Source of the DNA: Paenibacillus alvei DSM 29
Lineage (GTDB): Bacteria; Bacillota; Bacilli; Paenibacillales; Paenibacillaceae
Assembly (NCBI RefSeq): GCF_000293805.1
Contig: NZ_AMBZ01000008.1
Coordinates: 248,001-312,000 of the forward strand
Length of the DNA: 64,000 bases
Direction of reading: 5' to 3'
This document shows, in pieces, positions 17,936 to 20,678 of the stretch; within the stretch, counting starts at the first letter, position 1, and every line of letters starts with the position of its first letter. The notes beneath the pieces are model-generated. The model ran no database searches. It was not told the origin of the DNA and was given only the letters and a program-made list of their open reading frames with translations. The translations under genes were made by a program, and so were the position numbers.

Positions 17936-18730
17936 TTACTCCATTATCCACTCGTCTTCACGAACACGGATCTTTTCAAGCTTAACAGCCTTGCCGGTAG
18001 CTTCATCAATTTCGACTACAAGCCCATGGAACTGCCATTTTCCTTCGTCAACAACGAAACGGACTGGTAGCTGTGTCTTGAACTTGCGTAGCACAGCTTC
18101 CCTTTCCATTCCCAGCACGCCTTCCTTGGAGCCTACCATACCCACATCTGTTAAGTAAGCAGTGCCTCCTGGCAAGATTGTATCGTCATTTGTCTGTACA
18201 TGCGTATGTGTACCTACTACAAGTGACGCGCGGCCATCCAAGTGCCAACCCATCGCAATCTTCTCTGACGTTGCCTCAGCGTGGAAGTCAACAAGTATCG
18301 CCCGCGATTTCTTCCCCAGTGATTCAATGATTTCATCCGTCGTACGGAATGGGCAATCAATAGCCGGCAAAAAGGTGCGGCCTTGCACATTGACGATTAC
18401 CAGTTCCTTGCCGTTGGCCTTAATTACCGTATGACCTTGGCCTGGTGTCCCGGGCGGGAAGTTCGCTGGGCGAACCATGCGTTTCTCGTTGTCAATCCAT
18501 TCGAATATATCCTTATTGTCCCATGTGTGGTTCCCCATTGTAAAGCCGTGAACGCCTAGATCAACGAACTCCTTAATAATCGCAGAAGTTACACCTCTGC
18601 CTCCGGCAGCATTTTCAGCGTTCGCAATGATGATGTGCGGATTGTGCTTTTGCTTGAGTGACGGAAGAACCTGCTTGAGGGCTTTGCGCCCCGTATTTCC
18701 GACGATATCTCCGATAAACATTACTTTCAT
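17936..18730 (-). CDS. ymdB: YmdB metallophosphoesterase (2',3'-cyclic nucleotide phosphodiesterase)
   Basis: A 264-residue TIGR00282-type calcineurin-like phosphoesterase. Metal-binding motifs: MFIGDIVGNTGRKAL (first Asp), IIIANAENAAGGRG (Asn/Glu), TMGNHTWDNKDI (GNH), VDFHAEATSEKIAMGWHLDG and VGTHTHVQTND (GTHTH). In Bacillus YmdB controls the choice between motility and biofilm and affects RNA turnover. It lies downstream of rny as in Bacillus (ymdA-ymdB), but here 400 bases and an apparent mobile repeat separate them, so the two are probably transcribed separately. GGAGGA precedes the ATG. Confidence 0.94.
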   Translation of the reverse strand: MKVMFIGDIVGNTGRKALKQVLPSLKQKHNPHIIIANAENAAGGRGVTSAIIKEFVDLGVHGFTMGNHTWDNKDIFEWIDNEKRMVRPANFPPGTPGQGHTVIKANGKELVIVNVQGRTFLPAIDCPFRTTDEIIESLGKKSRAILVDFHAEATSEKIAMGWHLDGRASLVVGTHTHVQTNDDTILPGGTAYLTDVGMVGSKEGVLGMEREAVLRKFKTQLPVRFVVDEGKWQFHGLVVEIDEATGKAVKLEKIRVREDEWIME

Positions 18731-18832
18731 CTTGCCTAAGTCCTCCTTGCGACAGCCTCTAGCCCAGTTCTTCTTGAGTTCCGACCAGTTGAGGCAGCTT
18801 TCTATCTCCTAACCATTTCTTCGATGTATTAA

Positions 18833-19066
18833 AAAAAGGTCGGTTTGCAGCATCGAGAAGGTTGCGCGAACTTGAAGCGTATGCTTCCGTAGTGAGTTTT
18901 GCATTGCAAAACTTGTAGGGAGCGGCGAAGTGTAGATGAGACTACATGAGCAGCTGAATGTTTCCGTTGGAAACATACTTCGAAAGCATACGCCCTTCGA
19001 AAGTGAACGCACGATTCGATGTCAAGTTACTCTCTGTATCTCTTTGTGCCCAAAAGCGAACTTTTT
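18833..19066. repeat. MITE-like structured element with terminal inverted repeats
   Basis: The ends form imperfect 19-bp inverted repeats (18833-18851 and 19048-19066; 14 of 19 positions agree when one is inverted). Inside, CATCGA/TCGATG (18851-18856/19016-19021) and a perfect 10-bp pair GCGTATGCTT/AAGCATACGC (18877-18886/18984-18993) continue the symmetry. Three perfect hairpins follow in the middle: 18896-18912, 18931-18946 and 18958-18976. No ORF of useful size exists. It lies between ymdB and the rny terminator. It may be a non-autonomous mobile element, a structured RNA, or both. Confidence 0.6.
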
Positions 19067-19078
19067 GAACAACCGCTA

Positions 19079-19112
19079 AAAGGGAGAAGTGGCCTAATTA
19101 GGCCACTTCTCC
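19079..19112 (-). terminator. Terminator after rny
   Basis: A perfect 30-base palindrome (19083-19112; arms of 15 bases with the centre CTAATTAG) lies 19 bases past the rny stop and is followed on the minus strand by CTTTTA. Confidence 0.8.
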
Positions 19113-19130
19113 AAATCCTATATGTGCATC

Positions 19131-20678
19131 CTATTTCGCATATTCAACCGCTCGGGTTTCGCGAATGACCGTTACCTTAATATGCCCTGGATAATCCAAT
19201 TCATTTTCAATCGTCTTCGTAATTTCACGAGCAAGACGATATGCTTCGGCATCATCAATCTTCTCCGGTTGTACCATTACGCGGACTTCACGTCCCGCTT
19301 GAATCGCGTATGATTTCTCAACGCCCTCGAACGACTCTGAAATCTCTTCCAGTTTTTCAAGTCGTTTGATGTATGTTTCAAGCGTTTCCCTACGAGCGCC
19401 TGGTCTTGCTGCCGACAAAGCGTCAGCGGCAGCGACCAGCATAGCGATGACAGATGTTGCTTCACAGTCGCCATGGTGGGATGCGATGCTGTTAATGACT
19501 ACAGGATGTTCTTTATACTTCTTCGCCAACTCTACGCCGATTTCGACGTGAGATCCTTCAACTTCATGATCCAACGCTTTTCCGATGTCATGCAACAGCC
19601 CGGCACGTTTGGCTAACGTTACATCCTCTCCAAGCTCTCCTGCCATCAAACCGGCAAGATAAGCCACTTCCATAGAGTGCTTCAGTACGTTCTGTCCATA
19701 ACTTGTACGGAACTTCAAACGACCCAATATTTTGATCAAATCAGGATGCAATCCGTGCACGCCGACTTCGAATGTAGCTTGTTCTCCGTATTCGCGAATC
19801 CGCTCGTCCACTTCCTTGCGCGACTTCTCCACCATTTCCTCGATGCGAGCTGGGTGAATACGTCCGTCTGCAACGAGCTTCTCAAGAGATGTTCTTGCAA
19901 TTTCACGGCGAATCGGGTCGAATCCGGACAGAATAACCGCTTCAGGCGTGTCATCGATAATGAGATCGATCCCTGTCAACGTCTCGAGCGCGCGGATATT
20001 TCGTCCTTCGCGACCGATAATGCGGCCCTTCATCTCTTCGTTCGGCAATGCAACAACGGATACCGTCGTTTCTGCGACATGATCTGCAGCGCAACGCTGG
20101 ATAGCCATCGTAATAATCTCACGGGAGCGCTTGTCCGCTTCCTCGCGAGCTTGCTGCTCAATCTCTTTAATCATTTGCGCCGTTTCATGACGCACTTCTT
20201 GCTCTACATTCGTCAAAATAATTGTACGCGCATCTTCCATCGTCAGATTCGAAATGCGTTCTAATTCTGTAACTTGCTGCTGACAAATTTGATCGATCTG
20301 TTCTTGTGTTTCTTCGATTCGTTTCTCTTTAGCAGCTACTTGTTCTTCTTTACGTTCCAGCGCTTCTAACTTTTTATCCAACGACTCTTCTTTTTGCAAT
20401 AAGCGTCTTTCGAGTCGTTGAACTTCGTTCCGTCGTTCGCGGATGTCCTTCTCCGCTTCATTGCGAAGCTTATGGATTTCGTCCTTCGCTTCAAGCACTG
20501 CTTCTTTCTTCAGCGCTTCAGCTTCCTTGCGCGCACCATCCATAATTTGTTCCGCGGCGTGTTCAGCACTCGTTATCTTCGCTTCGGCAAGCGATTTGCG
20601 AATCAGGTATCCGATTCCAAACCCCAAGAACAATGCGGCCACAACGAGAACGATCGCGAGCCAAAGTTGTACGTTCAT
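19131..20678 (-). CDS. rny: Ribonuclease Y
   Basis: A 515-residue membrane-anchored endoribonuclease that starts bulk mRNA decay in Bacillota. Order: one N-terminal membrane helix ([20 protein letters not shown]), a long charged coiled coil (residues about 30-190), a KH domain with [20 protein letters not shown] (GxxG = GREG), and an HD domain with [13 protein letters not shown] and [20 protein letters not shown] (HD at LLHDIG). It ends [12 protein letters not shown] as usual. GGGGAGGTGAG precedes the ATG. It has its own promoter and a long structured leader. RicA, a partner of the RNase Y regulatory complex, is encoded in the same window. Confidence 0.97.

Follow-up and report, generated by a model that had tools for sequence, protein, structure and literature searches.

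What kind of DNA separates the genes for YmdB and RNase Y in the 64,000-nucleotide window analysed here (G000:C12:248001-312000, from a genome of 6.83 Mb)? The ymdB gene (17936-18730) and the rny gene (19131-20678) both lie on the minus strand, and their identities were confirmed by Pfam. Between them, the sequence-only reading had marked an ordered element at 18833-19066, for which a non-autonomous transposable element, a structured RNA gene and a lineage-specific repeat family were offered as explanations. The feature is real, and the symmetries described for it were recovered: the imperfect terminal inverted repeats pair 18833-18846 with 19053-19066 (86% complementary), the long internal symmetry pairs 18877-18899 with 18971-18993 (83%), and the three perfect hairpins comprise one of 9 bp at 18895-18913, one of 8 bp at 18958-18976, and a third, TGTAG/CTACA, at about 18931-18946, which was read from the sequence. 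On the minus strand, the arms of the long symmetry form an internal stem (18877-18993) around the three small hairpins. The place was right, while the limits were slightly short, as the family ends and an empty site give approximately 18815-19076. One frame of at least 60 aa overlaps the element (67 aa, minus strand, 18809-19012), which was taken as a chance frame. Outside the element, a perfect 15-bp palindrome at 19083-19112 (minus strand) is likely the rny terminator and a separate feature; a matching palindrome was present in all 12 of the relatives' rny-ymdB gaps inspected.

The limits of the element were determined by comparison with a relative. Among 80 YmdB loci, a set from which the own record may be missing, the closest named relative was Paenibacillus sp. 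NAIST15-1, with 95% identity in YmdB. Its rny-ymdB gap (L069) is 136 bp long and has no element, and the string CTCCCTTTTA is directly joined to GGAGATA. In the window, the same two strings are held apart by the element, and therefore the insertion occurred after TTTTA. The insertion point follows closely on the rny terminator, on the upstream side of ymdB, and the copy spans approximately 262 bp on the minus strand (18815-19076), with a family profile match at 18830-19075. According to the alignment, the left terminal repeat occupies 19042-19076 (minus strand) and reads GCGGTTGTTCAAAAAGTTCGCTTTTGGGCACAAAG, the family form being GAGGTTGTTCAAAAAGTCCGCTTTTGATCACGAAG, while the right terminal repeat at 18815-18862 (minus strand) has kept its inner CTTCTCGATGCTGCAAACCGACCTTTTT and has lost its outer GAACACGCAC, or holds it in decayed form. 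The left target-site copy, TTTTA, lies at 19077-19081 (minus strand), as determined from the empty site, and the presumed second copy at 18810-18814 (minus strand) is decayed to GGTTA, matching in three of five positions. Because of this imperfect duplication and the decayed outer right end, the window copy is old and probably immobile.

Similar ends were found in many other places. When the own genome was searched with a 341-base query, 18 rows were obtained, which corresponded to approximately 16 places including that of the window after a terminator self-match (L015) was removed and L014 and L018 were joined as one split copy. The copy search proposed in the sequence-only reading, together with the target duplications of the family, thus indicates a mobile repeat. 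Matches were obtained in 22 of 60 genomes, the own genome being among the 60, and a wider search with a better-kept copy from genome G014 (E 1e-5) gave matches in 194 of 295 Paenibacillaceae genomes and 14 of 19 genera; two candidates per genome were scored in the latter, so that it gives presence and not copy number. A repeat family was accordingly the right description, but its restriction to this lineage was too narrow. With one mismatch allowed, the end pattern occurred 35 times in the own genome against 7 for the reversed-pattern control, 280 against 6 in G014, and 86 against 9 in G036. Copies in different genomes have common ends and unrelated flanks. In one locus of G014 (L151:440-830), family copies form a tandem array with 183-bp spacing between two transporter-like genes.

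Records of other replicons were searched as well. No family match was found in phage records, and plasmid records gave one match, in Paenibacillus cellulosilyticus, with 66% identity and 4 places. Three stretches of viral contigs bear the exact end pattern (L320, L321 and L322). Two of these, L320 and L322, hold one isolated end-like string each. The third, an IMG/VR contig, carries a 329-bp element (L321:2297-2625) that is identical to locus L347 of genome G303; because the flanks are identical too, the contig probably comes from the same strain as G303 or a very near one.

In the alignment, the family ends are 5'-GAGGTTGTTCAAAAAG...CTTTTTGAACACGCAC-3', and similarity across genomes stops beyond them. 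To these ends belongs a target duplication of fixed length. The duplications were counted in 95 non-redundant end pairs from fetched loci outside the YmdB set, a non-random sample in which many loci had been fetched by an end-pattern match. Exact 5-bp duplications were present in 43 of the 95 pairs, compared with a mean of 4.5 and a maximum of 12 when the pairs were re-paired in 1000 shuffles, and 41 of the 43 have the form T...A, with T first and A last. Among the 52 pairs with no exact duplication, 19 match in four of five positions. Element length ranged from 35 to 407 bp across all 95 pairs and from 36 to 403 bp across the 43 with an exact duplication. Terminal inverted repeats, a target duplication of fixed length, many short copies that carry no transposase gene, and insertion polymorphism are thus found together, as in miniature inverted-repeat transposable elements (MITEs). 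Accordingly, the first explanation in the sequence-only reading, a non-autonomous transposable element, was borne out by the multiple copies, the 5-bp duplications and the empty site in the closest relative, and we regard the window element with high confidence as one copy of such a MITE family.

The copies form a modular size series. Hairpin modules are present or absent among them, often with both arms affected at once. In a subfamily of approximately 180 bp, both arms of the long stem are missing together, and the central hairpin and the outer parts are kept. Genome G303 has longer forms of 292-407 bp (L344-L348), in which an additional hairpin block follows CTTTTGAT at a single position of the left arm, as well as short ones of 37, 69 and 119 bp. 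Deletions can be asymmetric too, as 104- and 110-bp forms retain mainly one half. The shortest forms consist of approximately the two ends and little else, some of them with clean duplications. Five 36-bp elements (L050, L051, L052, L153 and L154) are barely more than two family ends, and exact 5-bp duplications flank L153 and L154.

The strong symmetry also raises the question of whether the element acts as RNA. On this view it would be first of all a structured RNA (sRNA or intercistronic mRNA element) that is also multicopy, and both its fold and its sense orientation would be maintained by selection. Folding is strong, as this explanation would have it: the minus strand of the window element gave a z of -3.86 (0 of 200 dinucleotide shuffles as good) and the plus strand -2.98 (1 of 200), while a better-kept copy from another genome folds at -8.0 and -7.1 (0 of 200 shuffles each). 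The covariance in stems asked for in the sequence-only reading was determined from 45 full-length copies out of 51, six from G025 being left out as their right parts were off the profile, and with a structure that was hand-defined on the same 45-copy alignment, which favours it. This structure was paired in 89% of cells. Changes on both sides were observed at 27 pairs against a shuffled mean of 13.9, and in 76 cells against 33.4. However, controls with a slid partner still gave 14-21 pairs and 22-45 cells, the 45 cells being obtained when the partner was slid by one column. GU-type cells exceeded AC-type cells by 142 to 93, an excess largely from one helix (43 to 10), but the pairs showing them were nearly equal in number (45 with GU and 43 with AC), and hence the strand preference is weak. 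In short, some compensatory change was detected, but little of the strand preference that an RNA would lead one to expect.

Orientation likewise bears on this explanation from both sides. Between co-directional genes, 36 of 51 copies were in sense orientation (p = 0.005), with 19 of 24 among copies scoring at least 200 but only 17 of 27 among the remainder, where the bias is weak. For this analysis, 84 loci were merged into 77 clusters by shared flanks, 74 with both neighbours called and 3 without; the gene contexts were obtained with a crude ORF caller rather than from annotation, and a few weak copies are included. Conservation was mixed: in seven orthologous pairs compared with four flank segments, the element was at least as conserved as all of them in three, less conserved than all in two, and between them in two. 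The best Rfam matches of the window were far below gathering scores, and five loci with other copies gave none at E 0.1. Given the lack of an Rfam family scoring close to its gathering threshold, the near strand symmetry of the wobble pairs and the inconsistent conservation of the orthologous pairs, a dedicated RNA gene, which the sequence-only reading had also put forward, is not supported, and a primarily RNA-based element seems distinctly unlikely to us. Nevertheless, the orientation bias and the compensatory changes are not expected from simple neutral decay. On their account a secondary RNA-level role is possible. We conclude that the family is explained by DNA mobility, perhaps with a minor consequence at the RNA level.

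Alternatively, a former MITE copy may, in this lineage, have been recruited to regulate ymdB. The element does occupy the leader of ymdB, beyond the rny terminator, and is in sense orientation there. In a distant species, Paenibacillus sp. D2_2, whose YmdB is 76% identical to that of the window, the corresponding gap contains a truncated family copy (L134:2388-2450), which is probably an independent insertion. It was also the only profile match in an rny-ymdB gap among the 80 YmdB loci, while L082 and L148 have family-profile matches outside that gap. Moreover, the element is absent from the gap of the closest relative and from all 12 gaps inspected, its right end is decayed, and a consensus-based scan of 18650-19250 gave no sigma-70-like promoter. 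Uptake as a regulator is therefore very improbable in our estimation. The same scan gave one terminator-like site within the element (minus strand, 19002-18978), where 0.8 were expected from shuffles. In the rny-ymdB gap of Paenibacillus phytohabitans (L142), AAGCTGATGCTTACAAAACTT is present twice, perhaps as another small repeat family. Finally, the symmetry might be a chance property of intergenic DNA that is present only once. The 64-kb window does contain no second copy, but the existence of many copies with defined ends and target duplications, and of an empty site, leaves this explanation practically no room, the copy and duplication counts having already refuted it.

As the window element is best read as a MITE copy, a transposase for it was sought. 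An autonomous parent is not necessary for a MITE, since parents can be lost. A search covering three Pfam transposase families and the facing ends of four genomes yielded no autonomous element with family ends. For the latter, family ends that face each other at the spacing of an insertion sequence were sought in G036 (all 86 ends) and, among the matches listed, in G012, G014 and G303. Five facing-end spans were opened, one in G036 (with an MnmE-like protein), two in G014 and two in G303, and by eye they contained ordinary-looking genes. In the case of the 20 apparently unpaired ends of G036, most belonged to very short or diverged elements, and none of the 20 had a convincing partner at insertion-sequence distance.

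Transposase loci were inspected from the other side. None of 26 DDE_Tnp_1 loci in G014, G036 and G012 was enclosed by family ends, and neither was any of 49 DDE_Tnp_1_6 loci (30 of 67 matches in 8 genomes and 19 of 19 in 8 more); a short decayed family copy lies near one transposase locus, L307. No DDE_Tnp_1_6 match was found in the own genome or in the high-copy genomes G285 and G064; the latter two gave 240 and 173 first-look family candidates, unscored, in the 295-genome search. Of 8 genomes tested, two (the own genome and G014) have Tn3 transposase, at 3 loci altogether, and the fetched flanks of up to 1.5 kb contained no pair of family ends. In the own genome, one Tn3-family transposase lies in an open frame of 1002 aa (L317, G000:C18:57355-58515), and another, incomplete, is found at C18:76666-77061. 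The DDE_Tnp_1_6 transposase elements of these genomes are presumably of IS1182 type. Derivation of the family from IS1182 is not supported, as the terminal repeats differ and 0 of the 49 DDE_Tnp_1_6 loci was bounded by family ends. Still, IS1182-type elements are the best lead to the source of the transposase, because their ends are of similar plan.

The following course of events may be proposed for the family. A transposase supplied in trans would have recognised the terminal repeats of approximately 35 bp, and the ends would have been joined to AT-rich DNA at a 5-bp staggered cut. Gain and loss of internal hairpins would then have produced the size series. The window copy has lost its outer right end and is now part of the leader of ymdB; there, its hairpin might influence processing of the transcript, and an effect on the leader is possible. 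On a broader and rather unlikely reading, the family would belong to a miniature-transposon superfamily that works as a construction kit of hairpin modules, in which whole helices are gained or lost, many copies throughout Paenibacillaceae have been recruited in sense as intercistronic RNA elements, and movement depends on a type of transposase not yet recognised.

The MITE reading defines a common Paenibacillaceae family and helps to annotate stretches that are otherwise blank. What is unusual about this family is the size series built from hairpin modules, together with very small forms that still carry duplications, a bias in orientation and a parent that was not found. The family also opens questions to testing. 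By what transposase were the many copies mobilised, when these genomes yielded none with matching ends? How do 36-bp elements acquire clean target duplications? And do hairpin modules disappear through palindrome instability in DNA, or does selection at the RNA level retain them?

The family can be compared with several known systems. BOX, RUP, REP and bcr1 are small bacterial repeats that are interspersed, palindromic and mostly intergenic, and the family shares this general character. IS1182-type elements in the same genomes have a similar end plan (GAGGCTGTCCCAAAAGT versus GAGGTTGTTCAAAAAGT), but the ends are not identical. Tn3 elements generate 5-bp duplications in AT-rich DNA and have ends of approximately 35-38 bp. 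With Tn3-derived miniature elements (TIMEs, the subject of PMC4133298) the present family would share the 5-bp AT-rich duplication and the approximate end length; a point of difference is that Tn3 transposase was found in only 2 of 8 genomes tested, and the fetched flanks of those loci contained no pair of family ends. No published description of the family was found at the level of titles and abstracts in the open-access literature searched, and the sections consulted of a review of bacterial MITEs name no Bacillus or Paenibacillus family (PMC10969869). According to the same sections, bacterial MITEs are short and non-coding, with terminal inverted repeats, target duplications, AT-rich intergenic targets and transcripts that can fold into stable stem-loops (PMC10969869). 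The Paenibacillus family differs in its wide modular size series (35-407 bp) and in that no parent insertion sequence was found, but all of those general features are common to it. It looks like a new MITE family, widespread in Paenibacillaceae, of a kind that is itself known.
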